The notes under the pieces are model-generated. The model saw nothing but the letters and a program-made list of their open reading frames with translations, made no database searches and was not told the origin of the DNA. A program made the position numbers and the translations under genes. DNA of 64,000 bases from Chloropicon primus (Eukaryota; Chlorophyta; Chloropicophyceae; Chloropicales; Chloropicaceae). Positions within the stretch are counted from its first letter, which is position 1. Each line of letters starts with the position of its first letter. The stretch covers positions 620,001 to 684,000 of the forward strand of contig CP060761.1 of assembly GCA_023205875.1 (NCBI GenBank). The letters are read 5' to 3'. This document shows positions 1,667 through 54,372 of this stretch, piece after piece.

Positions 1667-1850
1667 CCAGCAGCTGGAGAGACCTCCCAGGAGGCTCGAA
1701 AGATGTTCCTCAAAACGGGCCAAGCGAGGGGTCAAACGAAAGGTCTCGAGGTCTAGTTTCGCTCCACGGGGTCAGACAAGAGTTTCACGCGCTCTGTTCG
1801 CCTCTGCTTCACCCTTTGTGCTGCCAAAGATGGGATCTTGGGTTGGATCT
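1667..1850 (+). repeat. Dispersed intergenic repeat, family A, copy 1
   Basis: Its reverse complement recurs at 13496-13679, by eye about 85% identical. Both copies lie just upstream of genes and contain the upstream CTTTC element near their middle. No open frame or transposase signature is visible. Confidence 0.75.
1726..1750 (-). promoter_or_regulatory. Upstream CTTTC element, for the JmjC gene
   Basis: On the minus strand it reads CTCGAGACCTTTCG then TTTGACCCCTC, about 360 bp before the JmjC ATG and pointing toward it. It lies inside repeat A copy 1. Confidence 0.5.
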
Positions 1851-1879
1851 TGCTGAATTCTGTCCATCTGGAGCTTTGA

Positions 1880-2093
1880 AATACGACAGACGAAAGTCCA
1901 TCGAGGCCAAGGCGGTCGAGAGGGAGAGAGAGGGTAAGTTATCGATAAGATGGACGCACGAAGTGGAGAGGGGAACAAGAGAGAGGGTGATGGATGGAAA
2001 GATCATCTCGCGCTCTTTCGAAAGAGCCCTCTCTCAAAAGGAATGGCGTCCTGTGGTGGTTTTGGTGTACTGATCAAGTTTGTTTTCGGGTTT
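1880..2093 (+). repeat. Dispersed intergenic repeat, family B, copy 1
   Basis: The 214 bases match the reverse complement of 23368-23581 with a single mismatch found by eye (position 2049). The block ends 26 bp before the ZMYND10-like ATG. The other copy starts about 210 bp upstream of the IQ-protein ATG, in the same orientation relative to its gene. Confidence 0.85.
2001..2033 (+). promoter_or_regulatory. Upstream CTTTC element, for the ZMYND10-like gene
   Basis: Reads CATCTCGCGCTCTTTCG then AAAGAGCCCTCTC, about 90 bp before the ATG. The core forms a perfect palindrome, GCTCTTTCGAAAGAGC. Confidence 0.55.
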
Positions 2094-2119
2094 GACTATG
2101 CAGAGAGAGGAGAGGCAAG

Positions 2120-3874
2120 ATGGACGGCGGAGGCTTAGGGATGACGAACCTGATCACTCCCTACGAGGCGGAGCACAAGATTGAAGGCCTCTGCAACTTG
2201 GGGATAGAGCTCGTCGGCAGCACGAAGTACATGCAGCAAGTGAGGACTGTGGAAGAGTTGAACCTTCAAGCTCACCACAACGCCCTGAATCACTCGGATG
2301 AGTTTGTCTCTGACCTCTTGGTCACCCTGGACAAGATCCCGACCCTGATTCACGAGCTCCTGGTCATCGAGGTCTGGAAGATGAAAGTTTTGCCTCACCT
2401 GGAGGAAACTCTCACGTCCTCGTCCATGTCTGTGCCCGTTTACCTCATACTCCAGCACGAGCTTCAAGTGATAAACTTGCTCGAGTGCACGCTGTACCAC
2501 AAGCAAGCGGTGGAGTCCACTGGCGGCGATGCGATTGTGGAGCTGGTGGATTACTGCTACAGGAAGCTCGTGTACTTGAACACGGAGGCGAGGGAATACG
2601 CAGAGTCGACGAACTTGGACAAGGACCTGTCGGTCAAGGACGTGATGAACACGACGTCGGAACAGGAGCTGAAGAAGAAGATGGACGAGACCAAATTCGC
2701 GTGCTCCATGTGCAGCCTCGCCGTGCTGAGGTACCTCACCGACCACCTCGGTGGCCTGGATCCCGGCGTCATGGCGAGGCTGCTGGACACGCACGACGTT
2801 TGCATGTCTCTCATCCCCTTGCTGGAGGATCCTCCGTGGTGGAGGGTCAGCAACAGGACGAGGCAGATCGAGAGCTACGAGGACAACGCCTGGAAAGCGC
2901 TCAAGGGGGACGAAAGGCTTCGAGTGAACAAGCACGCCGCTCAGATCTGGCTGGCCCTCAACAACCTTGTCGTGGATCCGGAATGCAGGAAGAAGTACAC
3001 TTGGACGAATTACAGCATCGAGCAGGCGTCTCACTTGAAGAAGTACTTCAACGAGCTCTTGTTCGACCAGCTCCCAGTTCTGAAAGACCTGGCGAGGGTC
3101 GTGGACGAGATCATCCTTGGAGCAAGCTACCGGACCGAGGAGGTGATGAAGAGCTCGTTGATTCTCGAGCAGATTCCAGAAATCTTCGACTCCCTCGTGT
3201 CCCGAACCCGTGAGAACTTTGTGAGCATCGCCCAAAGGCAAGCCAAAGATTACTTTGATCCCGAGGACGGCGAAGCCATCAAGTCCACCAAGTCGCAGCT
3301 GGAATCGATGCTGAAGAGCTTCGAGTTCCTCGCGAACTTGGAGGACGAGACCAAGAAGCAGGGCAAGGTCGGGAACGACAAGGACAATGCGGCGGGGGAG
3401 AGTGATCACGTGAATGTGCAGATCTACAAGAACCTCAAGGAGAAGGGAGAGGAGTGGGAACAAGTGATCGACCTGTCGCTCAAGAGGAACGCCAAGAAGG
3501 ACCCCGAGGAGGTCGAGCAGCCGGCCAAGGAGCTCGGGATAACGATCAAGGGCCTGCGGTGCCGTCTCAAAGTGAGCAAGAAGAGCAAGACGGGCACGAA
3601 CCTGCCCCTGCCGAGCAAGGGGAAGATCACCGTGTCTCACAAGTCCAACACGGCGACTTCCACGTACGAGATTCCAGAGAGCGGAGCCTCAAAAGTGTTT
3701 TGGATCTCTGTGGGCAACCTCGGAGTCAACCAGTTCGCGCTGCAGCTGAAGAGCAAGCTCACCGAATCCATCAACGACGACGGCGGGGTGCCAACCTACG
3801 TCCCCGAAGGCGGGGCTCTCACTGTGCGAATGGAGGGCCAAACGAATTTTGTCGTCCCAGCCGGTGGGCAGTAG
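2120..3874 (+). CDS. ZMYND10-like dynein assembly factor lacking the MYND finger
   Basis: 584 aa, single exon, ATG at 2120. Residues about 10-420 follow animal ZMYND10 (DNAAF7): an N-terminal helical part, the stretch resembling PTLVEELIAVEMWKQKV (here PTLIHELLVIEVWKMKV), ELVDYCYRKL, an AVLRYLTD helix, and LILEQIPEIFDSL near the end of the core. ZMYND10 is a cytoplasmic chaperone for axonemal dynein heavy chains, so it implies motile cilia. Family members normally end in a C-terminal MYND zinc finger of paired cysteines. Here that region (about 440-584) has no cysteine cluster; it is replaced by a lysine-rich linker and a novel beta-rich tail ending at GGQ. The homology is clear; loss of the finger is read directly from the frame. 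A missed downstream exon is possible but the stop is clean. Confidence 0.85.
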   Translation: MDGGGLGMTNLITPYEAEHKIEGLCNLGIELVGSTKYMQQVRTVEELNLQAHHNALNHSDEFVSDLLVTLDKIPTLIHELLVIEVWKMKVLPHLEETLTSSSMSVPVYLILQHELQVINLLECTLYHKQAVESTGGDAIVELVDYCYRKLVYLNTEAREYAESTNLDKDLSVKDVMNTTSEQELKKKMDETKFACSMCSLAVLRYLTDHLGGLDPGVMARLLDTHDVCMSLIPLLEDPPWWRVSNRTRQIESYEDNAWKALKGDERLRVNKHAAQIWLALNNLVVDPECRKKYTWTNYSIEQASHLKKYFNELLFDQLPVLKDLARVVDEIILGASYRTEEVMKSSLILEQIPEIFDSLVSRTRENFVSIAQRQAKDYFDPEDGEAIKSTKSQLESMLKSFEFLANLEDETKKQGKVGNDKDNAAGESDHVNVQIYKNLKEKGEEWEQVIDLSLKRNAKKDPEEVEQPAKELGITIKGLRCRLKVSKKSKTGTNLPLPSKGKITVSHKSNTATSTYEIPESGASKVFWISVGNLGVNQFALQLKSKLTESINDDGGVPTYVPEGGALTVRMEGQTNFVVPAGGQ

Positions 3875-3958
3875 GAGGTTTGCACGCCTCCCCCCGTCCC
3901 TGTACATTATGATCATAACTTTAATCCTAATCTCGCTGCGCAAAAGATTTTGCCTTTC

Positions 3959-5608: not shown

Positions 5609-5745
5609 CTCCTCGTCTCGGGTGACAATCGTGGTGACCAGCAGGAACCACCCTTCCAACGCTCCCCCTCCCTCTGCAACCTTTGCTCTCCCGGACCCTT
5701 CCTCCTCCCCTCGTGAGCCACCTCGAGCGAACGGGGGTCGTGTGA

Positions 5746-5782
5746 CGCACCAATCGAAAGATCACGAGATGAAGCTTCCGCC
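5746..5782 (-). promoter_or_regulatory. Upstream CTTTC element, for the SAP gene
   Basis: On the minus strand: GGCGGAAGCTTCATCTCG, then TGATCTTTCGATTGGTGC, ending about 140 bp before the ATG at 5608. Confidence 0.55.
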
Positions 5783-5920
5783 TGGCGATCCTCTCTTTCA
5801 CTCCTTCCTCGTTCTCGTCGCTGAATTCCTCACTGATTGCGCTTGACTCCTCCCCTTCCCTCGCCAGGAATCAGCCAATCTCGTTCACAAGGCGAGTCAA
5901 TCCTTTGCCGATGCCGTCGA

Positions 5921-5948
5921 CCAAGGTATCAATGGAAAGATCTCAAGA
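5921..5948 (-). promoter_or_regulatory. Inner CTTTC-type motif of element 1, left arm
   Basis: On the minus strand: TTGAGATCTTTCC then ATTGATACCTTGG. This is the second motif type found in each arm of the inverted-repeat elements. Confidence 0.4.
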
Positions 5949-6182
5949 AGCACTTTCGTGTGGTGCCCTCGCCTTGCGCTTCCTCTCTCGTCCTCGTCGT
6001 CAACTCTCGTCACAAAAGTGTCGTTTCTCGTTTCGCCGCCGTGGGCTCCAAACTGGATAAGAAAAAGCGTCAAGCCAGAGCCTATCAATCAGAGGTTTGG
6101 GAGGAGTGGACCGCAATCAGCGAGGAGTTTCGCAACGAGGACGACCGAGGAAGCGCAAGGCGAGTTGATCATACGAAAGTGC

Positions 6183-6216
6183 TTCTTGAGATCTTTCCAT
6201 TGATACCTTGGTCGAC
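6183..6216 (+). promoter_or_regulatory. Inner CTTTC-type motif of element 1, right arm
   Basis: Mirror copy of 5921-5948 facing the serine racemase gene: TTGAGATCTTTCC then ATTGATACCTTGG. Confidence 0.4.
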
Positions 6217-6350
6217 GGCATCGGCAAAGGATTGACCCGCCGTGTGAACGATTGGCTGATTCCTGACGAGGGAAGGGGAGGACTCAAGCGCAAGCAGCGA
6301 GGCATTTGACGACGAGGACGGGGGAGGAGTGAAGAGCAAGGTCGCCAGGC

Positions 6351-6385
6351 AGAATCATCGTCTCGCGATCTTTCGATTGGTGCGT
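6351..6385 (+). promoter_or_regulatory. Upstream CTTTC element, for serine racemase
   Basis: Reads ATCATCGTCTCGCG, then ATCTTTCGATTGGTGCG, about 90-120 bp before the ATG at 6475. It is the mirror image of the copy at 5746-5782. Confidence 0.55.
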
Positions 6386-6474
6386 GACACGACCCCATTG
6401 GACGGACGGAGTTGTGAAGGGAAGGTCTGAAGGACAATTGCAGGAGGAAGCAGAGCTCGAGGGATTGGTTGACG

Positions 6475-7955: not shown

Positions 7956-8158
7956 TGCGTCCAGTCGGTCGACCAGCGGATCAATCCAAAGCTCTCGAGA
8001 AGACGTTTTGCGATGTGATGCACCTGAAGCCCCTACCCCCTCGCCCTCCCCGCCAACTTCCTTCCTCAGCCTTATCCTGTTCTGTTCCTCTCCCTCCACC
8101 AGTCACTGCACCAAAGTCTCCTCGATCTCGAGCACACCTCGGGTCGATCCGGTGCAGC

Positions 8159-8196
8159 CAAGGCACCAATCGAAAGCTCACGAGATGAAGATTCTG
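8159..8196 (-). promoter_or_regulatory. Upstream CTTTC element, for PAC4
   Basis: On the minus strand: CTTCATCTCGTG, then AGCTTTCGATTGGTGCC, about 205 bp before the ATG at 7955. Confidence 0.55.
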
Positions 8197-8332
8197 ATTG
8201 ACGACCTTGCTCTTCGCCCCTCTCTCGTCCTCGTCGCTGAATTCCTCGCTGATTCCGCTGCACTCCTCCCCTTCCCTCGTCAGGAATCAACCAATCGTTC
8301 ACACGGCGGGTCACTCCTTTGCCGATGCCGTC

Positions 8333-8362
8333 GACCAAGGTATCAATGGAAAGATCTCGAGG
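8333..8362 (-). promoter_or_regulatory. Inner CTTTC-type motif of element 2, left arm
   Basis: On the minus strand: TCGAGATCTTTCC then ATTGATACCTTGG, equivalent to the inner motifs of element 1. Confidence 0.4.
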
Positions 8363-8592
8363 CGCACTTTCGTATGATCAACTCGCCTTGCGCTTCTTCG
8401 GTCGTCCTCGTTGCGAAACTCCTCGCTGATTGCGGTCCACTCCTCCCAACCCGTGATCTCCTCCGAGGGACCCATTCTGGAGAGACCAGGACGAGAGGCG
8501 ATGGGAACAACAGGAACATCGCACCTTTGTCGAGGACAGTGGCGACGTCAGAGGAGAGGAAAGCGCAAGGCGAGGGCACCACACGAAAGTGC

Positions 8593-8626
8593 GCCTTGAG
8601 ATCTTTCCATTGATACCTTGGTCGAC
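8593..8626 (+). promoter_or_regulatory. Inner CTTTC-type motif of element 2, right arm
   Basis: Reads CCTTGAGATCTTTCC then ATTGATACCTTGG, facing the RuBisCO-like gene. Confidence 0.4.
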
Positions 8627-8753
8627 GGCATCGGCAAAGGAGTGACCCGCCGGAACGAGATTGGCTGATTCCTGACGAGGGAAGGGGAGGAGTGCAGCGC
8701 AATCAGCGAGGAATTCAGCGACGAGGACGGGGGAGGAGTGAAAGAGAGGATCG

Positions 8754-8797
8754 CCAGGCGGAAGCTTCATCTCACGGTCTTTCCATTGGTACCTTGG
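8754..8797 (+). promoter_or_regulatory. Upstream CTTTC element, for the RuBisCO-like/cupin gene
   Basis: Reads GGCGGAAGCTTCATCTCACG, then GTCTTTCCATTGGTACC, about 60-100 bp before the ATG at 8856. Confidence 0.55.
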
Positions 8798-8855
8798 TCG
8801 AAGGCATCGTCAAAGGATTGAGTCGGATCGAGTCGAACAGCTTGTTGTTGTTGGG

Positions 8856-10607
8856 ATGGCGGTGGAGGGGGAGAAGGACTTTGTGGTGGATTACGTGGTG
8901 AGGGCGGAGACGGAGGAGGAGGCGAGGCAGCAGGCTGGGAAGATAGCGCACGAGCAGACGGTGGAGCTTCCTGAGGCATATGTCAGAGACACTTATCCAG
9001 AGATCTCGGAAACGGTGGTTGGCAAACTGGTGGGGCTTGAGAGGGTGAGCAACGAGGATCGGTTGTGGAGGCTGTCGATCGCCTACCACGAGGACACGAC
9101 CGGCTTCGAGCTCCCGCAGTTCCTCAACGTTGTGTTCGGCAACACGAGCATCAAGGCGAACGTGCAAGTGGAAGATATCAAGTTGAGTAAGGGGCTTGCT
9201 GATGCGTTCCCGGGTCCGAGGTTTGGGACCGAGGGCTTGCACAAGCTCGTTGGGGTTGCTTTGGGCGAGCCGCTCGTGATGACGGCGCTCAAGCCCATGG
9301 GCCTCTCTGTCGAGGCTCTCGCGCACCAGACGTACTGCTTCGCAAAGGGTGGGATCGATATCATCAAGGACGATCACGGGCTCTCGAACCAGTCGTGGGC
9401 GCCCTTCGAGGAGAGGGTGAAAGCCTGCGTGGCCGCAGTGAAGAAGGCGAACGCGGAGACCGGGAGGAACTCCCTGTACGCACCGACGCTGAGCGGTCCC
9501 ATCGACAAGCTCTTCAGGATGGCGAGGTTCGTGAAGGAAGCTGGCGCGGGAGCGGTGTTGATGCTGCCAGGCATCACAGGGTTCGACTCCATGAGGGCTC
9601 TTGCGGCGGATGACTCGTTCAATCTCCCGATACTGTGCCACCCGGCCCTTATGGGCTGCATGCTGGGAGGAAGCCTGACGCCGGGGAACCTTCACGGCTT
9701 TGCCTTCGACGTGGCTCTCTCGCTGATTCCTCAAATCAGCGGCGCGGACGCCACCATCTTCCCGAACGTCGGCGGGAGGTTCGGATTCACCTTGAAGGAG
9801 TGCCAGTCCATCGTGGAGAGGTGCAGGAGCACGGAGGGGCCGTACAAGCCCATCGCAGCGACGCCGGGCGGCGGAATGACGTTGGATCGAATTCCCGAAA
9901 TCTTGGAGATCCTTGGGAGGGACATCACCCTCCTCGTCGGCGGCAGCGTCTTCGCGAGATCCCCTGACCTCGAGGGCAACTCAAGGGCATTCGTTTCGTC
10001 CACCGGAAGGAAGATGGAGAACTTTTCTGTTTCCCTGTCCAGCAGCAACGGCCACGTTCCGTCTCAAGAGCAGCTGGAACAGATCAGGAAACTTAGGGCT
10101 TTGAAGTACCCCGCGGTCAAGGGGAACCACGGGAAGTTCCTCGAGTTCAAGAAAAACTTCTCGGGGAGTGGGGTGATGGGCGAGGATGACTCGAGCCACT
10201 GGTTGAACGTTGCCCTGGAGATGTACAAGCCCGAGGCTGGGAACAAGAGCTGGGGCGGAGTCACCAGAACCGAGCTGATCGGAAAAAGGGATGAATCAAC
10301 CAAGTTCCATGTCAGGTACTTTGAGGTGTCCCCGGGCGGGCACAGCTCCCTGGAGAAGCACGAGCACGAGCACGTGGTGATATGCATCAAGGGAGAGGGG
10401 AAGTGCACGGTGGGCCAGCGCGTTTGGGACATGTCTTTCGGTGACATTTGCTACACCTCGCCATGGGACGTCCACCAATTCTGGTGCCCCGAAGACAAGA
10501 AGGAAACCTTTGCTTTCTTCTGCATCGTCAATGCCGAGAGGGATAAGCCCGTTCTCGTGGATCCGACCGGACTGGAGCTGGCTGACATGCCGAGCAGCTG
10601 CGGATGA
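8856..10607 (+). CDS. RuBisCO-like protein (form IV) fused to a C-terminal cupin
   Basis: 583 aa, one exon, ATG at 8856. Residues 1-425 are a full RuBisCO large-subunit fold: an N-terminal alpha/beta domain, LPQFLNVVFGN at 86-95, catalytic-type lysine K146 in ALKPMG, then IIKDDHG with K171 (carbamylated Lys position), D173 and H174. H174 replaces the magnesium-ligand Glu of true RuBisCO, and no loop-6 lysine motif is seen, so this is a form IV protein that should not fix CO2. Residues 485-570 are a cupin: KHEHEHVV with H502/H504/H506, then SPWDVHQF with H540. In Rhodospirillum rubrum an RLP isomerises 5-methylthioribulose-1-phosphate and a separate cupin releases methanethiol to give DXP. A fusion of these two partners fits that MTA-isoprenoid shunt. 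Function is inferred; other RLP lineages are decarboxylases or enolases. Confidence 0.88.
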   Translation: MAVEGEKDFVVDYVVRAETEEEARQQAGKIAHEQTVELPEAYVRDTYPEISETVVGKLVGLERVSNEDRLWRLSIAYHEDTTGFELPQFLNVVFGNTSIKANVQVEDIKLSKGLADAFPGPRFGTEGLHKLVGVALGEPLVMTALKPMGLSVEALAHQTYCFAKGGIDIIKDDHGLSNQSWAPFEERVKACVAAVKKANAETGRNSLYAPTLSGPIDKLFRMARFVKEAGAGAVLMLPGITGFDSMRALAADDSFNLPILCHPALMGCMLGGSLTPGNLHGFAFDVALSLIPQISGADATIFPNVGGRFGFTLKECQSIVERCRSTEGPYKPIAATPGGGMTLDRIPEILEILGRDITLLVGGSVFARSPDLEGNSRAFVSSTGRKMENFSVSLSSSNGHVPSQEQLEQIRKLRALKYPAVKGNHGKFLEFKKNFSGSGVMGEDDSSHWLNVALEMYKPEAGNKSWGGVTRTELIGKRDESTKFHVRYFEVSPGGHSSLEKHEHEHVVICIKGEGKCTVGQRVWDMSFGDICYTSPWDVHQFWCPEDKKETFAFFCIVNAERDKPVLVDPTGLELADMPSSCG

Positions 10608-10963
10608 GACCACGTGATGATATCCTATCGTATCAAAGTTATTAATAAACAAACACTTATCCAATTCTTGGAGTTTTTTTGGAAAGCGTTTGAGCGTTTG
10701 AAAATAATTCTCATTGGCCCCTCAAGGACAAGGGGGCCATCCAATCTCAGTAACGGACGTTCGAACAGGGGAGGGAGAAGGCGAAGGGAAGCGAAGAGGA
10801 GGACGGACGTTTGGTCGACGGAGGACGCGACAAGCGGAAGCACCGTCTCTTCCTCTTTCGTGAGAGCCCTCGCACGAAGGAAACGGCGGTCTGGCGAGGA
10901 TTTGAGGACGAGAAGAAGTGAGAGAACGTAACGCTCGAGGAGGAGAAAGTGAGACATAGTAGG
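10608..10963. other. Intergenic region between the RLP/cupin and F-box genes
   Basis: 356 bp holding the RLP 3' end, with an A/T-rich stretch at 10620-10710 that probably carries the polyadenylation region, and one CTTTC element near the next ATG. No other feature seen. Confidence 0.6.
10833..10873 (+). promoter_or_regulatory. Upstream CTTTC element, for the F-box/ankyrin gene
   Basis: Reads AGCGGAAGCACCGTCTC, then TTCCTCTTTCG and TGAGAGCCCTCGC, about 90-130 bp before the ATG at 10964. Confidence 0.5.
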
Positions 10964-13276
10964 ATGAAGGAGACGGAAGAGAACAAGAGGCAGAGGACGG
11001 AGGCCCCCCCAAAACACGCACTGGATGTGCTGCCAGAGGTTCTGTGGAACATCGTCGGCAAGCATGTGGCCGAGTACGACCGCCTCGCCTTTGGGTTGAC
11101 CTGCAAGACGTTCCTCGAGGCGGTGGCGGCGGTGAACCCTGACCTGAAGAAGGGTAACAAGGTTGTCCTGAAGACGGCCCTGGGACGCGTGTTGTTGTTC
11201 GAGGAGATGCCTTGCTTCAGCATGGGTTGGTTCCAGTGGGTGTTTCGCTCGTTCAAAAGGAAGAAGGGAGCGATCGCGATCGGTGGGAGGTGTGGACGGT
11301 ACTCCGACCACTTGTGCGACGCCGACCTGATGTTGCTCGCTGCTTTCCAGGGCAGCAAGGGGGTTCTGGAGTGGTTGGTGGTGAACCAAGGGATCCCTTT
11401 GAATATCAAGTATATGCATGGCGAAGAGGTAGCAGCTGGAGGTGCTGCTGCAGGAGGTCACATCGATGTGCTGGAATGGCTGAGGAGCGAGGGGTGCAAG
11501 TTCAATTGCTGGACCTGTTCTTATGCAGCTTTTGGAGGTCACCTTGGTGTTCTGCAGTGGCTTCGAAGTCAGGACTCGCCTTGTGATTGGGACGACAAGA
11601 CTTGTGATTATGCAGCTAAAGGAGGTCACCTTGATGTCCTGCAGTGGGCTCGAAGCCAGGATCCGCCTTGCCCTTGGAACGACAAGACTTGCTCAGTGGC
11701 AGCTTATGGAGGCCATCTCGAAGTTCTGCAGTGGCTTCGAAGCCAGGATCCGCCTTGCCCTTGGCACTGGGATACTTGTGATTATGCAGCTAAAGGAGGT
11801 CACCTTCATGTTCTGCAGTGGCTTCGAAGCCAGGATCCACCTTGCCCTTGTGACCAGTGGGCTTGTGCTCAAGCAGCTACACGAGGTCACCTTCATGTTC
11901 TGCAGTGGCTTCGAAGCCAGGACCCGCCTTGTGATTGGGACGAGAGGACTTGTGAAGGGGCAGCTATATATGGTCACCTTGATGTTCTCAAGTGGGCTCG
12001 AAGCCAGGACCCGCCTTGCCCTTGGGACGAGAAGACTTGTGTTAAGGCAGCTGAAGGAGGTCACATTGATGTTCTCAAGTGGGCTCGAAGCCAGGACCCG
12101 CCTTGCCCTTGGAACGAGATAATTTGTTGTTGGGCAGCTAAAGGAGGTCACCTTGATGTTCTCAAGTGGGCTCGAAGCCAGGATCCACCTTGCCCTTGGA
12201 ACGAGAGAACTTGTAAATATGCAGCTAAAGCAGGTCACCTCGAAATTCTGCAGTGGGCTCGAAGCCAAAACCCGCCTTGCCCTTGGAACGAGAAGGTTTG
12301 TGAGGTTGCAGCTAAATATGATCACCTCGAAATTCTGAAGTGGCTTCGAAGTCAGGACCCGCCTTGCCCTTGGAACCTGTGGACTTTTTCTCGTGCAGCT
12401 AAAGCAGGTCACCTGCATGTTCTGCAGTGGGTCCGAGGCCAGGATCCGCCTTGGCCTTGGGACATGTGGACTTGTTGCGGTGCAGCTGAAGGAGGCCATC
12501 TTCATATCCTGCAGTGGGCTCGAAGTCAGAATCCACCTTGTGATTGGAACGAGAACACTTGTACTGAGGCAGCTCGAGGAGGTCACCTCTATGTTCTGCA
12601 GTGGCTTCGAATCCAGGATCCGCCTTGCCCTTGGAACGAGGAGACTTGTTCTAAGGCAGCTTATGAAGGTCACCTCCACGTTCTGCAGTGGGCTCGAAGT
12701 GAGGACCCGCCTTGCCCGTGGGACATCTGGACTTGTGCTGGTGCAGCTAGAGGGGGTCATCTTCATATTCTGCAGTGGGTTCGAAGCCAGAATCCACCTT
12801 GCCCTTGGGACGAGTACACTTGTCTTTGTGCAGCTGAAGGAGGTCACCTTGATGTCCTCAAGTGGGCTCGAAGCCAGGACCCGCCTTGCCCTTGGAACGA
12901 GGGGGCTTGTGAATATGCAGCTAAAGGAGGTCACCTTGATGTTCTGCAGTGGGCTCGAAGCCAGGATCCGCCTTGCCCTTGGAACGAGGGGACTTGTTTT
13001 GAGGCAGCTAAATATGGTCACCTTGATGTCCTGCAGTGGGTTCGAAGCCAAAACCCGCCTTGCCCTTGGAACGAGGGAGCTTGTCTTGTCGCAGCTCAAT
13101 GTGGTCGTTTCCACGTTATACAGTGGCTTCTTCGTCAGGATCCGCCTTGCCCTTGGGACCCAGTTGCTTGCAGAGCTGCAGCAGAGCAGAATGGCTACCA
13201 GGACGTCGTCGCGGAGATCGATACATTCCTTGGAGTGAGGTTGATCGAAGAAATGTTCGCCGTCCAGGGATGGTAA
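10964..13276 (+). CDS. F-box protein with about 20 ankyrin-type 29-residue repeats
   Basis: 770 aa; the first ATG is at 10964 (a GTG lies 5 codons earlier). An N-terminal F-box-like segment (LDVLPEVLWNIVGKHV, then DRLAFGLTCKTF) precedes about 20 tandem units of 29 residues with the pattern GGHLDVLQWARSQDPPCPW followed by NExTCxxAAx. These belong to the algal/protist ankyrin class. At DNA level the unit is 87 bp and many units are nearly identical, giving a repeat tract at about 11455-13190. The F-box would recruit SKP1/CUL1 ubiquitin ligase and the repeats would bind a substrate. Target unknown. Confidence 0.85.
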   Translation: MKETEENKRQRTEAPPKHALDVLPEVLWNIVGKHVAEYDRLAFGLTCKTFLEAVAAVNPDLKKGNKVVLKTALGRVLLFEEMPCFSMGWFQWVFRSFKRKKGAIAIGGRCGRYSDHLCDADLMLLAAFQGSKGVLEWLVVNQGIPLNIKYMHGEEVAAGGAAAGGHIDVLEWLRSEGCKFNCWTCSYAAFGGHLGVLQWLRSQDSPCDWDDKTCDYAAKGGHLDVLQWARSQDPPCPWNDKTCSVAAYGGHLEVLQWLRSQDPPCPWHWDTCDYAAKGGHLHVLQWLRSQDPPCPCDQWACAQAATRGHLHVLQWLRSQDPPCDWDERTCEGAAIYGHLDVLKWARSQDPPCPWDEKTCVKAAEGGHIDVLKWARSQDPPCPWNEIICCWAAKGGHLDVLKWARSQDPPCPWNERTCKYAAKAGHLEILQWARSQNPPCPWNEKVCEVAAKYDHLEILKWLRSQDPPCPWNLWTFSRAAKAGHLHVLQWVRGQDPPWPWDMWTCCGAAEGGHLHILQWARSQNPPCDWNENTCTEAARGGHLYVLQWLRIQDPPCPWNEETCSKAAYEGHLHVLQWARSEDPPCPWDIWTCAGAARGGHLHILQWVRSQNPPCPWDEYTCLCAAEGGHLDVLKWARSQDPPCPWNEGACEYAAKGGHLDVLQWARSQDPPCPWNEGTCFEAAKYGHLDVLQWVRSQNPPCPWNEGACLVAAQCGRFHVIQWLLRQDPPCPWDPVACRAAAEQNGYQDVVAEIDTFLGVRLIEEMFAVQGW
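11455..13190 (+). repeat. 87-bp tandem coding repeat (ankyrin units)
   Basis: About 20 head-to-tail copies of an 87-bp unit encoding 29 residues, with conserved stretches such as CCGCCTTGCCCTTGGAACGA. Uniformity between distant units points to ongoing unequal crossing-over or conversion. Confidence 0.85.
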
Positions 13277-13495
13277 TCCATAGATAATAGTTTTCCTCTC
13301 CTCGCAAACCACGCGTGGAGGAGGAGAGAGGATCCGCAACAAGCCCGACCAAAAGGTGGTGGCAGTGCACTACCCCCTCTGCCCCCTCTCCTCACCAGAG
13401 GAGTCCAGCGGTGATAACGGCAGAGATGTCTTTCAGAAGAAGAGATATTGTATTCAAATCGTGAAGGATGATTGTTCCAGAAGCTTATTAGTGCA

Positions 13496-13679
13496 AGATA
13501 CAACCCAAGATCCCATCTTTGGCAGCACAAAGGGTGAAGCAGGGGGAGTGAGAGGCCAAAAGACTCTTCTCTGACCCCGTGGAGCGCAACTAGACCTCGA
13601 GACCTTTCGTTTGACCCCTCGCTTGCCCGTTTTGAGGAACATCTTTGGAGCCTCCTGGGAGGTCTCTCCAGCTGCTGGC
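13496..13679 (-). repeat. Dispersed intergenic repeat, family A, copy 2
   Basis: Reverse complement of 1667-1850, by eye about 85% identical, 75 bp before the DNAAF1 ATG. Confidence 0.75.
13596..13621 (+). promoter_or_regulatory. Upstream CTTTC element, for DNAAF1
   Basis: Reads CTCGAGACCTTTCG then TTTGACCCCTCG, about 130-160 bp before the ATG at 13754. Confidence 0.5.
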
Positions 13680-13753
13680 CAAAGCAAAGGCTAAAGAGGG
13701 AGAGAAGAGAGGCCTTGAAGTGGCGGACAAGGGGTGAAGCGACGAGGGCAAAC

Positions 13754-17179: not shown

Positions 17180-17250
17180 TAACTTAAATATTGTTTGTTT
17201 GTACCAAAAAGCCTTACATCAGCATCGTACCTCACACGCAAGATGGTGGA

Positions 17251-18373: not shown

Positions 18374-18703
18374 GATGTGTGGAGATTGATCCTCCCTCGG
18401 TTGCAAGGGCTTGCCTCAACCCAACTGGAACCTTGCCCGTCTTTGACGACGAGTCCTTCCTGCGAAGTGGGGTCTCCCTGTCCACCTAAGATTGCACAAG
18501 ATGGTCCTCCACTCGTCCCAACAAAGGGTGCCGAATGGAATTAAAGTAGTTTTGAAGCCCGCTCACCGGTCCTGAAGCGCTCCCCTCGCGCCTGCGCCAA
18601 TCCCTTGGGATGCAAACCACTCGCCCCTTCCCTCCTTACCTTCCACAACACCCCTCACCTTCTATTCCACTTGAACAGATCCTTCAGAGCGCCAAACAAG
18701 TCA

Positions 18704-18730
18704 ACCGAGGTATCAATCGAAAGCCCGTGA
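18704..18730 (-). promoter_or_regulatory. Upstream CTTTC element, for the J-protein
   Basis: On the minus strand: TCACGGGCTTTCG then ATTGATACCTCGG, about 330 bp before the ATG at 18373. Confidence 0.45.
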
Positions 18731-18960
18731 AACAACGTTTCGTTTAATCGACACCTCCTGTGCTGCTTCAGCCGCTCTCTCCCTCCACTGGCTCCCAAAA
18801 AGACGGCTCCTCCTCCTTCCCTAATGATGGGGCCCGATACTTACGATTGAGGAACACGTGACAGATTGCAGACCGTTGACGACAGAGGCGAGGGCAGAGG
18901 TGAGTTTTGTGACGACATTGTGGACGAGGGCGAGGACGAGGGCGAAGGAAAGGTCCAAAG

Positions 18961-19005
18961 GTAGAATCTTTGTCTCGTTATCTTTCAATAGACCCCTCGG
19001 TGGAC
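18961..19005 (+). promoter_or_regulatory. Upstream CTTTC element, for the NlpC/P60-like gene
   Basis: Reads TAGAATCTTTGTCTCG, then TTATCTTTCAATAGACCCC and TCGG, about 260-300 bp before the ATG at 19266. Confidence 0.45.
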
Positions 19006-19265
19006 CAAGTCGACGTCCTGGTGAAGATTTGAGCGACTGAACCGTGTGTCGTCTTGGCAGTTTCGACTGGCTTGTGAAGGGGAAGGCGACTGGGCTGGAG
19101 ACAAAGGGAGTCGGTCGAGCAGAGTCGTAACGCTCGACGAAAGGTGTTATCTTTTTGACGGGTTCCTTGCATTGCAGTGAATCCCGCCAGGAGGAGGAGG
19201 AGGAGGAGGAGTGCTTTGGTTGGTTCTGAGTTGCAGAGAAGAGAGACAGCAGGAGGACGGGCCCT

Positions 19266-23367: not shown

Positions 23368-23581
23368 AAACCCGAAAACAAACTTGATCAGTACACCAAA
23401 ACCACCACAGGGCGCCATTCCTTTTGAGAGAGGGCTCTTTCGAAAGAGCGCGAGATGATCTTTCCATCCATCACCCTCTCTCTTGTTCCCCTCTCCACTT
23501 CGTGCGTCCATCTTATCGATAACTTACCCTCTCTCTCCCTCTCGACCGCCTTGGCCTCGATGGACTTTCGTCTGTCGTATT
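23368..23581 (-). repeat. Dispersed intergenic repeat, family B, copy 2
   Basis: Reverse complement of 1880-2093 with one mismatch seen over 214 bp, 21 kb away. Such identity in non-coding DNA implies recent copying or conversion. Confidence 0.85.
23426..23460 (-). promoter_or_regulatory. Upstream CTTTC element, for the IQ gene
   Basis: On the minus strand: ATCTCGCGCTCTTTCG then AAAGAGCCCTCTC, about 270-300 bp before the ATG at 23158; identical to the copy at 2001-2033. Confidence 0.55.
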
Positions 23582-24018
23582 TTGGATTCGAACGGATTTC
23601 CTCTTTTTTTCAGAGGGGAACGTTTTTTCAACGGATTGTTCTCAACGGATGTTCTAGACAGCATGCCGCAGGATCCCCTTGTGTCCAATGACCAGAGGAC
23701 GCACGTAAGTCTCCGGAAGAGCAATGGATCCTCCATCAGAGCCACGGTAAACCTTTTGCCCAAGCCATCCCAACACCAAATCAAATCGAGAGACAAGTCA
23801 GCAGCTGAGTTTCCACAACATCAACCCAAAGGTAGCCGAGCCATCGCCACGAGAGAGGAGAGAGAGAGATGAAGCAATGCCAAGACGGGAAGGTGGGAGG
23901 CGGGAGGGAGATCGTGCACCGGAAAGTGATCCCAATCTTCACCTTTCTTGAGAGACTCGTTCGAGCGCTGTAAAATTGTAATCGTACACACGGACGGACG
24001 ACCGAGAAAACTTTAAGC

Positions 24019-27604: not shown

Positions 27605-27700
27605 CACTTGGATCCATCCTGTCTTGGATCCATCCTGTCTTGGATCCATCCTCTCTTGGATCCATCCTGTCTTGGATCCATCCTGTCTTGGATCCATCTT
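27605..27700 (+). repeat. 16-bp minisatellite
   Basis: Six head-to-tail copies of a unit reading TTGGATCCATCCTGTC, with small variants. Confidence 0.85.
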
Positions 27701-28020
27701 GCCAATGCTTTGAAGAAGGTGGACGATCCTCCCCCCCTGTTCACCCATCCTCGTCCTAATCCTAATCCTAATCCTAATCCTACAGTTCCCCCTCCCTCCC
27801 TCCTTCCTCCCCCCCAGGGCTCCGAAATCCTGTCCAGGGGATGGAGGTTATCCTGTCTTGGATCCATCTTGCCAATGCTTTGAAGAAGGTGGACGATCCT
27901 CCCCCCCTGTTCACCCATCCTCGTCCTAATCCTAATCCTAATCCTAATCCTAATCCAGTTCCCCCTCCCTCCCTCCTTCCTCCCCCCCAGGGCTCCGAAA
28001 TCCTGTCCAGGGGATGAAGG
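27681..28020 (+). repeat. 170-bp direct tandem duplication with internal CCTAAT runs
   Basis: 27681-27849 and 27851-28020 are nearly identical at an offset of 170 bp. Each contains about five CCTAAT hexamers (near 27752 and 27925), then a pyrimidine tract ending CCCCCCAG. The layout resembles a repeated branch-point plus 3' splice site, but no matching donor was identified. Confidence 0.8.
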
Positions 28021-28189
28021 TTCTCGAAGGTGAAGATCTTTCGGTTCGGCGGCCGGAGACGAAAAGAATTTGGGGAGGGAAGCGTTTTTTGCGGACGGCC
28101 AGAAAACAGCGAAGCGCGGCGCACAAGAGCGAGCGCTACGACGAGGAACGAGGACGCGAAGCAAAGGAAGGGAAGAGAACAAGATCAAG

Positions 28190-37031: not shown

Positions 37032-37995
37032 CTCACAGGATGATGAAGCTGAAGATGTTCCCCTTGCCTCTTGATGCCTTCGAAAGGACTTTTTCCCCTC
37101 AAAGAGCAAGCAACCTTCCCCTTCCTCTGCGATGACGAAAGAAAGCCGAGCGAGCGAGAGAGAGGGAAGCGGAGAGCGAGACGCCTCAAAGAAAGAAAAG
37201 AAAGGAAAACGTTTGGAAAACAATCCCCTTTGGCTTTGGCTTCCCTTTGGCTTTGGCTTCCCTTTGGCTTTGGCTTCCCTTTGGCTTTGGCTTCCTCGCC
37301 TGCGGATTTGTTTTCAAATCAAGACAAGGCGTGGGTCCCTCGTATTGACCAAGACCTCGTTGGAAAGATCTCGACAAGACGCTTCCAATGATGTCGACGC
37401 CGTTCTTGTCTCTTGGGTACTCAACCTCCCAATCGTCTTCGAGTTCCCCCGCGCGCAAGCCCCCACACAGCGCCAATGATCGCTCGGCTTTGAGAGACCT
37501 CGAGAGACCTCTTCCTCTCCGCCGTTTTCGCTGTAGAAAGTGCAGCTTAAATCGCCAAAGCCACGTGAATTCGTCGGACCGAGAGAGTGCAAAACGCATG
37601 TTAAATCTTAACCCACGTGGGAATGTGGGGGTCGCTTATTCGGTGTAATGTGAGTGTGTACACCAGAAAAAGAAAAAGAAAAAGAACATCAACAGACGAC
37701 CGACGTGGCTTCTAGACGCGGCTTCTAGGCTTGTTCTTCGGGGTGGCACTGCCACCGTGCCACGAGGAGAGGATTGTTGTTGTTTTTGTTGTTGTTCTCT
37801 CTCTGTCTCCTCTCCTCTCCTCCGGCTCTCCCCTCTGTCTCCTCCTGCCGTTCTTACTTTAGGTGTGAAGGGAGGGAGTCCACAGTGTGGGGCTGTGAGC
37901 GCCTCCTCGCAGCATGCAGCTCCCCTCGAGTTGGAATGGAAGGAGAGGATCTTCTCCTCGGGGGGGGGGGGGGTTGAGGATGGATTGGTTTTTGG

Positions 37996-41194: not shown

Positions 41195-41526
41195 TAGCAA
41201 TAGACTTAATATGACCCCCTTTCTCACTCCACAGGCCAGCATCGACCTCGACCGTTTCAATGCAAACCAGAAAAAAAAAAAACCTTCGAAACCATCAGGC
41301 AAGAAGGGGACCAAGGAAGGAACTTGTCGCGGTAGACGGCGAGGGAGGGGGGCGAGTGGGAGAGGCGAGGGGCAGGCGGAAGCACTGTCTCGCGTTCTTT
41401 CGAAAGAGCCCTCGCTTGAGAGGAATGGCGTGCTGTGGAGGATTCTGAAGCCTCTTTGTCTTGGGGGGCTTCGCGCGAGAGGAGAGGGGAGGGGAGGGGA
41501 GGTCCACCTTGGCGCCTTCGTTGAGG
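41195..41526. other. Intergenic region upstream of the fatty acid hydroxylase
   Basis: 332 bp holding the kinase 3' end, an A-run at 41271-41281 and one CTTTC element. No gene seen. Confidence 0.6.
41374..41415 (+). promoter_or_regulatory. Upstream CTTTC element, for the fatty acid hydroxylase
   Basis: Reads AGGCGGAAGCACTGTCTCG, then CGTTCTTTCGAAAGAGCC and CTCGC, about 110-150 bp before the ATG at 41527. It is one of the fullest matches. Confidence 0.6.
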
Positions 41527-42645: not shown

Positions 42646-42803
42646 CGCTCGTCTTCTTTCCACGTCGTCATATGCCACGCATGTAATACACACACAGACC
42701 CAATTGACCTTGAGTCAACGACTCACAAAACAAACTTCGAGGCAGCCTTCTCTAACGCCTGTCGTCTCAAAGGGAGGACCACTCCTCTTTGCCAAACCCT
42801 TCA

Positions 42804-42830
42804 GCCGAGGTATCAATCGAAAGCCCTTGA
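42804..42830 (-). promoter_or_regulatory. CTTTC element with no obvious target gene
   Basis: On the minus strand: CAAGGGCTTTCG then ATTGATACCTCGG. It faces the 3' end of the fatty acid hydroxylase gene, so it is the one exception to the orientation rule. Confidence 0.4.
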
Positions 42831-43066
42831 GAAGTTCTTCTGTTCTTTCAACACCTCCTCCCCTTCACCGTCACCGTCCTCGCACAAAGTCCTCGACAAT
42901 TACCCTCTCTCTCCCCGTCATGCCCCCGAGCGTTAATCCGCTCTCTCCCTCCTCTCGTCATTTTGATTCGCAGGAAGGCGACGAGGAGTCCGTCGGTCGA
43001 AGGGCGAAGGGAGAGAGGGGAAGGACGGCGAAAGGGGGGAGACGGGGACGAGGAGAGTGGCGTCAG

Positions 43067-43106
43067 GGGAATCTACGTGTCGCGAGCTTTCGACTGATAC
43101 CTCCCT
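43067..43106 (+). promoter_or_regulatory. Upstream CTTTC element, for exosome RRP42
   Basis: Reads GGGGAATCTACGTGTCGCG, then AGCTTTCGACTGATACCTC, about 75-110 bp before the ATG at 43178. Confidence 0.55.
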
Positions 43107-43177
43107 TGACGCATTTGACGTCGTGGAGGCTGAGGAGTTGGACGAGGAGTGGTGTTTTGACAGGTGGACGGCTTGGG

Positions 43178-44485: not shown

Positions 44486-46423
44486 ATGGCGGCCAAGCAG
44501 GGCGCACGAGTGAGGCAAAGGGTGGCGGTGAGGGGAGGCTTTGTCGCGAGAGGCTGGTTGGGATCATGCGTGAGGTCTCCTCGTGTTCGCGTCCGCCAGG
44601 AACCGTCGAGGAAACTGTCGAGACGCTCGAGGAAGGAAGAAACGAGCCGCCGAGTCGTGGTGCATGGCTTGAGCAGTGATGAAATCGATGACTTGTTGGT
44701 GTTCCAGGAGCCGGAAGAGGAGGAGGCGAAGGGCGAGTGCTACGGTTGCGGGGCTCACTTGCAGACGAGGAGCGAGAAAGCGGCGGGTTACGTCAAGAGG
44801 GAGACGTACGAGGCGAAGAAGAAGCACAGGCAGTTGAACCAGATACTCTGCTCTCGGTGTCACCTTCTCTGTAATGGGAAGATGGTGCCAGGGATTGAGG
44901 ACTGGGGCACGAGGCTCATTCGTGGTGGGCAGGAGGAGGCCGGGCCGAGTGGAAGCGGCGGAGACTTCGAGCGGGAGAGCTTGCTGACGCCGGACGAGCT
45001 CCGAAGGCAGCTGCTTGGCCTGAAGTCGAAGAGGAGTCTTGTCCTTCACTTGGTGGACCTCACAGACATTCAAGGAACGTTCTTGAGAAACATCAGGGAC
45101 CTCGTGTCGAAGAACCCTGTGATGATCATCGGGACGAAGATGGACCTCCTTCCAAAGGGCTCGAACGTGAAGGACGTGGCCGACTGGCTCCACCAGTACA
45201 TCGAAGACAAGGGGCTCAATCCCATCAGCGTGGTGCTGTGCAGCAGCAAGAGCAGGTTCGGTATAAGGCAAACGGCGAGCTTGATGAAGAAGAACAGGAA
45301 AGGCAGAGACGTCATGGTCATCGGGGCGGCAAATGTCGGCAAGTCGGCCTTCATCCGGTCCTTGCTGAATGAGATGAGCTCGATGAAGTCGGCCAATTAC
45401 GACGTCGGTGCCGCACAAATCAGGCACAAGCCCGTGGAGTCCGACATGCCGGGAACGACGCTTGGAATCATTCCGCTGAGGGCTTTCGAGAGGGGAGGGG
45501 TCCTGTTCGATACCCCGGGACTGCACTTGGAGCACAGGCTGATCCACATGATGCTGCCGAGCGAGGTGAAGTCTGTCCTGCCTCGGAGGCCCCTGTCGCC
45601 GTACATCGCCAAGACTCCGGCGAGCATCCTCTTCGAATCCAAGCTCGTGGAGCAGCAAGAGCGGGGGGAAAGGATGTCGGGTGTCGGTGATGCCGAGGAA
45701 GATGGCGGCGCAACGCCTACTGGTTACGAGGAAGATTTGCTGGACGACTTGCTCGAAAACCCTGGGGCCGTTGAAGGGGCCAGCGCGACTTACTTGTGGG
45801 GAGACGTGGCGAGGCTGGACGTCCTTAGCTGCCCAATGAGCACCCACCTCGTGTTCTGCGGCTCCAAAGCGATGAGGATCACTGCTCAGCCCCTGGTGAA
45901 GGACGCCGAAGAGGAAGAGAAAGAGGAAGAGACCGTCAACCTCTGGGGGGACGCCGCCACGACGGATGATTCCGCTGAGGCGGACGTCGGGGAGGACCTG
46001 GGTGGCCTGACCGTGCCCCTGCTGAAAGAGAGACTTCGGGACGCGGGGTTGAAGGTGGGCGGCAGGAAGGACGAGCTCATCGAAAGGCTTCTCCAGCACG
46101 AAGCCTCAGTCTCTCCCTCCCGGACTACCGATGGAAAAGAAGACGCGTCGTTGTCATCGGACGGCGAGAGCAGCGAGCACGGACTCGTCTCGGTGAGAGC
46201 TAGGGGGGGCTTGACGATGACAAAAGAGCTCGTGATCCAAACTCCAGGCTACAGCGGCAACGCAATTCAGCCGATTGTGGACATCTGCATCTCTGGCGTG
46301 CCAGGCTGGATCACAGTTTATGCCAAGAGCAGTGACGAGCCGATACGGTGCAGGGTGTACACGCCGCGCGGGATCCAGACGTTCCTCAGGGAGCCCTTTC
46401 CGATCGACGTCATCGAGTACTGA
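44486..46423 (+). CDS. Organelle YqeH-type circularly permuted GTPase with a SAP domain
   Basis: 645 aa from the ATG at 44486 (the frame starts at a GTG three codons earlier). The first 60 residues are strongly basic, as in a transit peptide. A zinc finger of paired Cys follows (CYGCG at 85-89, CSRCHLLC at 122-129). The GTPase motifs come in permuted order: G4 (GTKMDLLP, 216-223), G5 region, G1/P-loop (GAANVGKSAF, 280-289) and G3 (DTPG, 342-345). In bacteria and plant plastids YqeH acts in 30S ribosome maturation. Residues 508-537 are an extra SAP motif (LTVPLLKERLRDAGLKVGGR, KDELIERLL) between the GTPase and the conserved C-terminal domain; I do not know this in other YqeH proteins. Confidence 0.9.
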   Translation: MAAKQGARVRQRVAVRGGFVARGWLGSCVRSPRVRVRQEPSRKLSRRSRKEETSRRVVVHGLSSDEIDDLLVFQEPEEEEAKGECYGCGAHLQTRSEKAAGYVKRETYEAKKKHRQLNQILCSRCHLLCNGKMVPGIEDWGTRLIRGGQEEAGPSGSGGDFERESLLTPDELRRQLLGLKSKRSLVLHLVDLTDIQGTFLRNIRDLVSKNPVMIIGTKMDLLPKGSNVKDVADWLHQYIEDKGLNPISVVLCSSKSRFGIRQTASLMKKNRKGRDVMVIGAANVGKSAFIRSLLNEMSSMKSANYDVGAAQIRHKPVESDMPGTTLGIIPLRAFERGGVLFDTPGLHLEHRLIHMMLPSEVKSVLPRRPLSPYIAKTPASILFESKLVEQQERGERMSGVGDAEEDGGATPTGYEEDLLDDLLENPGAVEGASATYLWGDVARLDVLSCPMSTHLVFCGSKAMRITAQPLVKDAEEEEKEEETVNLWGDAATTDDSAEADVGEDLGGLTVPLLKERLRDAGLKVGGRKDELIERLLQHEASVSPSRTTDGKEDASLSSDGESSEHGLVSVRARGGLTMTKELVIQTPGYSGNAIQPIVDICISGVPGWITVYAKSSDEPIRCRVYTPRGIQTFLREPFPIDVIEY

Positions 46424-47757: not shown

Positions 47758-48356
47758 CACGACCTCCGCCACCGCCGTCTGGTCCCTCCCTCTCCCTCTC
47801 TCTCTCGTACCCCTAAAAGAAGCAGCAACATGTTTCAGTCTCAGAATCCGCCACACCGCGTCATTCCCTTCGACGAAGGGGTCAAACGGAAGAGAAAGGC
47901 ACGACGCTTCGGTCCGCAACCCTTCCCCTCGCTCCCGCCCCCCCTCCCTCTCGCTCCTCAACTCACCTCTTGTCGCCCCTCGCCGTGTCGGACCGACGCA
48001 ATCGTCAATTCCTGTGGCCTCAGGAGGCGCCAGGATGTCTGCAGGACCCCAGAACCATCAATGGCCGCCCAGGTGATGGAGGGGGGGAGGAGAGGGGGGG
48101 AAGGGGAGGCAATTGGACGTGCACGACGATGGGTAGATCCCCTCTTCATCTTGTGCTTTCTCGTTTGAATCCTTCCTCGCAAGAATCGGACCGGTTTAGA
48201 GGGACTCCAGGGGACGCGATTGGGATTGGGGTGGCACAAAGGGTGGAAACGCCGCGTCTTCCTCTAGTGCCACATCAATGAATGCGATGCTGTGCTGTTC
48301 TACACAATAATTACATGGTTTGGTGAAAGCAAGTCACAACTTCTCCTTCGATGTGA
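47758..48356. other. Intergenic region between the LysM and Ku70 genes
   Basis: 599 bp. One CTTTC element near the LysM start; purine-rich G runs at 48080-48110. No gene. Confidence 0.6.
47871..47915 (-). promoter_or_regulatory. Upstream CTTTC element, for the LysM gene
   Basis: On the minus strand: CGAAGCGTCGTGCCTTTCTC, then TTCCGTTTGACCCCTTCG, about 115-160 bp before the ATG at 47757. A small insertion splits the core. Confidence 0.4.
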
Positions 48357-50237: not shown

Positions 50238-50280
50238 CACTAAAACCCAAAGAAGCTTGCTTTTCAGTCCGCCAATCCTT

Positions 50281-50328
50281 TCGACCGAGGAGTCCAACGA
50301 AAGAAGAGGCCACGATGCTTCCGCCTGG
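50281..50328 (-). promoter_or_regulatory. Upstream CTTTC element 1, for Ku70
   Basis: On the minus strand: AGGCGGAAGCATCGTGGCC, then TCTTCTTTCGTTGGACTCC and TCGG, ending about 45 bp before the ATG at 50237. Confidence 0.5.
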
Positions 50329-50460
50329 CACCCACACCCTCGCGTCCTACCTCGCCCTCCTCGACCAGAGCGCCCTCCGCAACCTCTCCCCTGTCTGTCT
50401 CCCTTGGAAGAGAAAGCAATCGTTTTTCAGTCCTAAATCCTCATTCCTTGGTCATTCCTT

Positions 50461-50508
50461 TCGACCGAGGAGTCTAACGAAAGACAAGACCACGACGCTT
50501 CCGCCTGT
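50461..50508 (-). promoter_or_regulatory. Upstream CTTTC element 2, for Ku70
   Basis: On the minus strand: GGCGGAAGCGTCGTGGTC, then TTGTCTTTCGTTAGACTCC and TCGG. It is the second copy in the duplicated unit. Confidence 0.5.
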
Positions 50509-50706: not shown

Positions 50707-50741
<35 letters not shown>

Positions 50742-50775
50742 GACAGAAAGAGAAAGCGAGGAAGCGTAGAGCATC

Positions 50776-50932: not shown

Positions 50933-50967
<35 letters not shown>

Positions 50968-53964: not shown

Positions 53965-54130
53965 TCTCTCTCTCGCACCCGCACCACAAGCTCGTGATCA
54001 ACCTCCTGCTGCTGTGTCCAACGCCAAACAAACAAACAAACAAACAACGATGATGACGATGATGATGATGATTTGGTGTTGATTTTGATGATGAAACATG
54101 GAAAGAGAATATCAGTCTCCCGGGTTCGAT

Positions 54131-54172
54131 CCCCTTCGACTGAAGCGTCGTTCGAAAGAGCGGGACGAGACG
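54131..54172 (-). promoter_or_regulatory. Upstream CTTTC element 1, for DDM1/HELLS
   Basis: On the minus strand: CCGTCTCGTCCCGCTCTTTC, then GAACGACGCTTCAGTCGAAG, about 170-210 bp before the ATG at 53964. The spacer after the core differs from the others. Confidence 0.4.
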
Positions 54173-54335
54173 GTTCCATCGATCCCGCTCCCCCCGCCCT
54201 CCGCCGCAAACTTACTCTCGTTCTTCACCGCGTTCGATCGAGGAGGATCGAGGAAAAAAACAACAAGAACAAGAACAAGATCGAATTGACGAAAAAAAAG
54301 TCTCAGCGCCAACCACCCCAGCCGCCAAATCCTTC

Positions 54336-54372
54336 AAGAGAGGGTTCGATCGAAAGAGCACGAGGAGACGAA
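54336..54372 (-). promoter_or_regulatory. Upstream CTTTC element 2, for DDM1/HELLS
   Basis: On the minus strand: TTCGTCTCCTCGTGCTCTTT, then CGATCGAACCCTCTC. Confidence 0.45.

Follow-up and report, generated by a model that had tools for sequence, protein, structure and literature searches.

A directional element of about 53 bp upstream of 17 unrelated genes in a Chloropicon primus chromosome segment, a probable promoter element with recurrent divergent spacing

The segment of the green alga Chloropicon primus considered here comprises 64,000 nucleotides of contig CP060761.1 (assembly GCA_023205875.1, positions 620,001 to 684,000, forward strand); it is referred to as the window, its first letter being position 1. 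Its GC content is 56.7%. Alignment and a matrix scan identified 25 copies of a directional element of about 53 bp, located upstream of 17 genes (Table 1); 27 genes in all have their start in the window. An original prediction, made from the letters of the same DNA, had described a recurrent upstream block before about 17 genes; that observation was confirmed, and the signal proved stronger than was claimed there.

The genes preceded by the element are of diverse kinds. Gene models consist of open reading frames, with Pfam assignments where matched and first exons read by eye for the J-protein, RRP42, LysM and NlpC-like genes, for which distances to the ATG are therefore approximate. Pfam matches were obtained for PAC4, RuBisCO-like/cupin, RNase PH (RRP42), LysM, fatty acid hydroxylase, ankyrin, SNF2 (DDM1-like), HLH at 36-37 kb, SAP together with GTPase (YqeH), polyketide synthase, SAP, a PLP enzyme (serine racemase), Ku70, SAM synthetase and HSP70. 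The JmjC gene matches Cupin_8, JmjC itself falling slightly under the cut-off, while Pfam recognizes only ankyrin repeats in the F-box gene and only leucine-rich repeats in the DNAAF1-like gene. No Pfam family was found for the given stretches of the ZMYND10-like, IQ, J-protein and NlpC-like genes or of the bHLH gene at 34-35 kb, and these names are those of the original prediction, which also named the flagellar-type genes present in the window. According to the genome paper (PMC6731263), C. primus has 57.5% GC, a mean intron length of 152 bp, a nearly complete complement of flagellar genes, and polyketide synthase regions of low GC on chromosomes 3, 5 and 8.

The shared upstream element

The 14-base core first proposed has 37 matches in the window with at most two mismatches, compared with 9.5 (standard deviation 2.9) in shuffled sequence; only matches carrying the longer core were counted as copies. 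When the copies are aligned on this 14-mer, their common sequence begins about 11 bases ahead of the core and runs to about 41 past its first base, and the consensus of 19 copies, read on the gene strand, is GGAAnCnTCnTCTCGnGnTCTTTCGATTGAnnCCTCGGTCGAnnGGnTTGGC, with which the consensus originally reported agrees. The 25 copies form 13 sequence groups and these in turn 10 superclusters. For the blind test, a 56-column matrix was built for each copy without any member of that copy's supercluster and was used to score the whole window on both strands. Every copy outscored all 121,140 positions away from the listed copies, the narrowest margin being that of the bHLH copy (25.4 versus 24.8). With the full matrix, the lowest listed copy scores 34.9 bits and the top other position 23.7 bits. 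Opposite-strand shadows of listed copies were not counted, nor were weak places at 26024+, 30378+, 48150+, 23515+ and 1933-, of which the directional matrix keeps only 48150+ above 14 bits. A pattern scan of IMG/VR returned three matches, which are attributed to chance since no position in the contigs concerned scores above 5.2 bits with the matrix.

Among unrelated copies, similarity is confined to the element. With one copy per supercluster (n = 10), the core of 53 columns contains 46.6 bits, compared with 7.2 for the upstream and 4.6 for the downstream flank of the same length. Mean pairwise identity among these ten unrelated representatives is 0.58-0.69 across −10 to +29, falls to 0.46 and 0.39 in the following two 10-bp bins, and lies at 0.23-0.33 from +50 onward, where 0.25 is expected; a slight increase at −60 to −11 (0.33-0.43) is read as composition because a strongly purine-rich tract coincides with it. 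Individual columns are conserved very unevenly, CTT at +8 to +10 and G at +17 being invariant beside random columns. Among 27 offsets tried, the matrix is self-similar at 12 columns (z = 3.7), and among 61 shifts tried it shows palindrome-like symmetry around columns 20.5 (z = 3.7) and 14.5 (z = 3.0). By eye, and with modest statistics, the core may be composed of TCTCGnGA, TCGATTGA and TCGGTCGA at steps of about 12 bp, with GGAAnC preceding them. No significant 10-bp helical periodicity of conservation was detected (best period 9.5, permutation p = 0.16).

The uniform direction that had been claimed for the element was borne out, as 24 of the 25 copies are directed at a gene start. All 16 copies between divergent genes point outward, toward their assigned gene, and where a gene start lies on one side only, 8 of 9 are correctly oriented, the exception being 42818-. 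This copy corresponds to the lone exception originally reported at 42804; it is real and has no target gene, but it is not the sole such case, as a second, weak arm without a gene is present at 48150+. None of the 25 copies lies inside a gene span, although such spans, some with approximate ends, cover 76% of the window and leave 24%. With corrected start codons, the distance from the ATG to the start of the nearest copy is 44-383 bp (median 143; 10 of 17 genes at 74-160), in place of the 40-360 bp originally given. Two copies each before Ku70 and DDM1 were correctly described, whereas SAP, serine racemase and the RuBisCO-like protein (RLP) gene, listed with a single copy, have two each and PAC4 has three.

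The most G/C-biased genes had been said to lack a clear copy. In genes without a copy the mean GC content at third codon positions (GC3) is 0.86 (n = 9) compared with 0.77 in genes with a copy (n = 15; p = 0.005; 24 of 27 genes, JmjC, NlpC and ATG5 being left out), which fits two promoter classes; the division is not strict, as a copy precedes the bHLH gene at 36-37 kb, with a GC3 of 0.94, and YqeH, at 0.77, lacks one. A partial sequence resembling the element, GATCTTTCGGTTCGG, was noted by eye before HSP70, just downstream of a tandem duplication at 27680-28025 (period about 170 bp, 97%), which lies between SAM synthetase and HSP70.

Spacing of the copies and copied promoter blocks

A geometry absent from the original prediction emerged from the arrangement of the copies. 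Head-to-head copies (minus then plus within one intergenic region) are separated by 247-270 bp in each of the five pairs in Table 1, and same-strand neighbours within one promoter by 176-198 bp. In a random-placement test with two positions in each of five independent intergenic regions (SAP/serine racemase representing both C blocks, the weak arm included, uniform placement assumed), separations agreed within 19 bp in 6e-5 of trials and within 23 bp in 8e-5. The LysM copy had seemed to be unpaired, but the top non-listed position in the window, 48150+, sits 263 bp away from it and on the correct strand; in a partner test the empirical p was 0.01 for LysM and 0.2-0.96 for the seven other unpaired copies. 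The separations suggest nucleosome-scale spacing: a step of about 180 bp approximates a single nucleosome repeat, and two divergent starts 247-270 bp apart would leave suitable room for a nucleosome-free gap or for one nucleosome with its linkers.

Several promoters also have blocks of 190-640 bp in common, one pair being 99.5% identical, which indicates that half-promoters have been copied between genes. Blocks A and B meet at 1853/1879 and together make up a single divergent promoter, yet each half was copied singly to a different gene (DNAAF1 and IQ, respectively), both times in the correct orientation. Block C, the only block with long inverted arms, forms a palindrome in which the arms measure about 240-265 bp and are 87-88% identical, and the two Ku70 copies likewise arose by tandem duplication (103 bp, 89%). 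No direct repeat of at least 3 bases was found within 5 bases of both ends at any of the four copies of blocks A and B. Recent promoter copying is thus real, but it cannot account for the core common to copies with unrelated flanks.

Table 1. Element copies and copied promoter blocks in the window
Feature	Position	Strand	Remarks
JmjC/cupin gene (ATG 1367) copy	1709..1761	-	group A
ZMYND10-like gene (ATG 2120) copy	1996..2048	+	group B; 270 bp divergent separation from JmjC/cupin copy
SAP gene (ATG 5608) proximal copy	5727..5779	-	
SAP gene distal copy	5906..5958	-	179 bp upstream of proximal copy
Serine racemase distal copy	6174..6226	+	251 bp divergent separation from SAP distal copy
Serine racemase (ATG 6475) proximal copy	6351..6403	+	
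PAC4 (ATG 7955) proximal copy	7958..8010	-	
PAC4 middle copy	8143..8195	-	185 bp from proximal copy
PAC4 distal copy	8320..8372	-	177 bp from middle copy
RuBisCO-like/cupin (RLP) gene distal copy	8584..8636	+	247 bp divergent separation from PAC4 distal copy
RuBisCO-like/cupin (RLP) gene (ATG 8856) proximal copy	8760..8812	+	
F-box/ankyrin-repeat gene (ATG 10964) copy	10836..10888	+	
DNAAF1-like gene (ATG 13754) copy	13585..13637	+	group A
J-protein gene copy	18690..18742	-	first exon ATG 18373, by eye
NlpC-like gene copy	18963..19015	+	ATG 19266, by eye; 256 bp divergent separation from J-protein copy
IQ gene (ATG 23158) copy	23413..23465	-	group B
bHLH gene (36087-37031) copy	37334..37386	-	
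Fatty acid hydroxylase gene (ATG 41527) copy	41378..41430	+	
Orphan intact copy 42818-	42790..42842	-	no gene found in front; 261 bp divergent separation from RRP42 copy
RRP42 copy	43068..43120	+	first exon ATG 43178, by eye
LysM gene copy	47859..47911	-	first exon ATG 47757, by eye
Weak, probably decayed copy 48150+	48139..48191	+	not among the 25 copies; no gene in front; 263 bp divergent separation from LysM copy
Ku70 (ATG 50237) proximal copy	50270..50322	-	
Ku70 distal copy	50450..50502	-	180 bp upstream of proximal copy
DDM1-like gene (ATG 53964) proximal copy	54125..54177	-	
DDM1-like gene distal copy	54323..54375	-	198 bp upstream of proximal copy
Promoter block A, before JmjC	1664..1853	-	190 bp, 90.5% identity to 13493-13681 (+)
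Promoter block A, before DNAAF1	13493..13681	+	
Promoter block B, before ZMYND10	1879..2093	+	215 bp, 99.5% identity to 23368-23582 (-)
Promoter block B, before IQ gene	23368..23582	-	
Palindromic double promoter block C, SAP/serine racemase	5734..6396	.	part 5749-6383 84.5% identical, inverted, to 8163-8790
Palindromic double promoter block C, PAC4/RLP	8158..8797	.	about 640 bp

Other features of the window were recorded alongside the element. The RLP gene (8856-10607, +) encodes a cupin domain fused to a RuBisCO-like protein, eighteen 87-bp repeats at 11523-13084 (+) in the F-box gene encode its ankyrin repeats, and a SAP domain is carried by the YqeH-like GTPase at 44486-46423 (+). An ATG5-like autophagy gene at 15691-17182 (+), named by eye, is interrupted by several introns, also read by eye, of about 100-140 bp; it lacks a copy of the element. 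Four near-identical 74-bp tandem repeats (54574-54866) separate the DDM1-like gene from a polyketide synthase frame of 2,991 codons (55026-63998, -) that runs off the window and contains KR, ketoacyl synthase, dehydratase, ADH, carrier and thioesterase domains. This frame lies in a low-GC stretch (55-64 kb) with a 5-kb internal repeat (57499 and 62500, 99% over 300 bp).

A probable directional DNA signal and its alternatives

The reading best supported by these data, to which we assign a probability of about 0.74, is that the element is an orientation-dependent, double-stranded DNA promoter element that would be bound by a protein. A location in the promoter or start-site zone is favoured because strand, position and fixed geometry agree, and a double-stranded DNA signal because neither conserved RNA pairing nor a known RNA family was found: RNAalifold returned 0 consensus pairs on 19 of the 25 copies, no Rfam match was present in the window at gathering scores, and no tRNA or known RNA genes were found, including near the orphan copy 42818-. 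Thus, from the range of functions originally suggested (promoter, transcription start or 5'-leader), a directional promoter or start-site-zone element at ordinary genes is retained, while a structured, riboswitch-like 5'-leader RNA is not supported.

We propose a model whereby a sequence-specific protein or complex would bind the element, perhaps through repeated contacts along it, as the parts of the core resemble one another at a 12-bp step. The bound protein would keep a nucleosome-free gap open and steer initiation downstream at a large class of genes, and two elements placed back to back would define a divergent promoter whose width is fixed. An arm facing no gene would either persist (42818-) or decay (48150+). 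In addition, half-promoters of about 200-300 bp that carry the element have been copied between unrelated genes. Such a gap-keeping, direction-setting binder would explain the orientation, the pairs, the series and the orphan arms.

Several observations weigh against this interpretation. The copies are not 25 independent events, as they collapse to the 13 groups in 10 superclusters and several of these have long copied blocks in common. The distance from copy to ATG is broad, an intact copy (42818-) has no target gene, and only one of eight unpaired copies (LysM) has a partner at the divergent spacing, a modest result after eight tests. If transcription begins just past the element, upstream ATGs should be depleted there; the depletion is not significant (8 ATG to 32 CAT downstream, 20 to 35 upstream, p = 0.11). 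Finally, a TATA box does not divide genes with the element (1 of 17) from genes without it (1 of 10).

The main alternative raised originally was a mobile repeat, in the form of a short non-autonomous element of the miniature inverted-repeat transposable element (MITE) or foldback type that would insert where promoter chromatin is open, the shared element being its terminal repeat and the gene-facing orientation a by-product. Blocks of 190-640 bp with sharp ends common to unrelated promoters, including the pair at 99.5% over 215 bp, are what such an element would leave, as is the palindromic structure of block C, and that part of the suggestion stands. However, elements of this type are expected to lack orientation relative to genes, whereas 24 of the 25 copies are directed at a gene start, and no end-flanking direct repeats of 3 bases or more were found at the four copies of blocks A and B, themselves halves of one divergent promoter that were copied separately and each correctly oriented. 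Among unrelated copies only the 53-bp core is shared, with very uneven column conservation, and no copy lies in a gene span or between convergent genes; with core-confined similarity and orientation left unexplained, we consider this alternative unlikely. Another proposal is homogenisation alone, in which promoters spread among genes through duplications of different age and the element is simply the part that survived best, with no function. Copying is clear and of several ages, but neutral decay would not be expected to leave invariant columns (CTT, G) next to random columns, or to keep the divergent spacing constant across unrelated promoters, and this proposal is very improbable.

Strict gene orientation could also result if the element were part of the transcript, as a 5' untranslated region (5'-UTR) intron, an introner-like element or a leader RNA that needs the sense orientation. 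By eye, block B contains a good donor, GGTAAGT (about 1934), and an acceptor-like TGCAG (to 2103) precedes the ZMYND10 ATG, so that a possible 5'-UTR intron (1934-2103, +) would frame the element. In other copies such donor and acceptor signals, again judged by eye, are not consistently placed, no coding-region intron contains any of the 25 copies or the next-ranked match, no consensus RNA structure was predicted on 19 copies, and the common core is only about 53 bp. A role in the transcript is improbable.

Relation to known promoter elements

In yeast, Reb1, Abf1 and Rap1 recognize short sites and maintain the nucleosome-free region at many unrelated genes. As described by Wu et al. (PMC9481977), yeast general regulatory factors limit divergent noncoding transcription and thereby set promoter direction. 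The likeness to the present element lies in the direction-setting role proposed for it at many unrelated genes; the difference lies in its length (about 53 bp, 47 bits), in the fixed-spacing pairs, and in a binder that is putative. Drosophila Motif 1 and DRE (the DNA replication-related element) are directional and lie near the start site of TATA-less, broadly expressed housekeeping genes of animals. The C. primus element is likewise directional but far longer, of different sequence and multiplied at steps of about 180 bp. The CCAAT box bound by NF-Y is promoter-proximal and linked to the nucleosome-depleted region, and the 3' end of the majority consensus (nTTGGC) resembles a reversed CCAAT box; however, only one of the 25 copies contains an exact ATTGGC, and the conserved core lies elsewhere. 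MITEs and introners are dispersed short repeats of nucleosomal size, introners being strand-specific, whereas here no target duplications were found at blocks A and B, no copy occurs in a coding intron, and similarity between unrelated copies is confined to the core.

A narrow literature search found no published report of the element. Among papers containing the string TTTCGATTGA there was no title on an algal genome, and among the matches listed for 'Chloropicon' with 'promoter' there was no title on promoters of this alga. In the accessible part of the 2019 genome paper (PMC6731263) the word 'promoter' does not occur and 'motif' occurs once, in reference to RWP-RK proteins; in that of the 2025 genome paper 'motif' and 'upstream' do not occur. 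A shared promoter element is in itself a known kind of signal; its length, the fixed divergent spacing and the copied half-promoters are what differ from promoter elements known to us.

More tentatively, the window may sample a genome-wide system in which one architectural factor would read a 53-bp directional sign and set divergent promoters of about 250-270 bp together with tandem sites one nucleosome apart, half-promoter cassettes of about 200 bp spreading by conversion or transposition and giving unrelated genes ready-made promoters; we regard this wider scheme as possible rather than probable. What is known of core-promoter signals comes chiefly from animals, yeasts and land plants. In the compact genome of a picoalga, a long directional element whose divergent spacing is fixed would provide a clean test of how DNA encodes promoter direction and nucleosome phasing, and the published C. 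primus genome and RNA-seq make the main tests immediate. Copied half-promoters, in turn, would show how promoters spread among unrelated genes.

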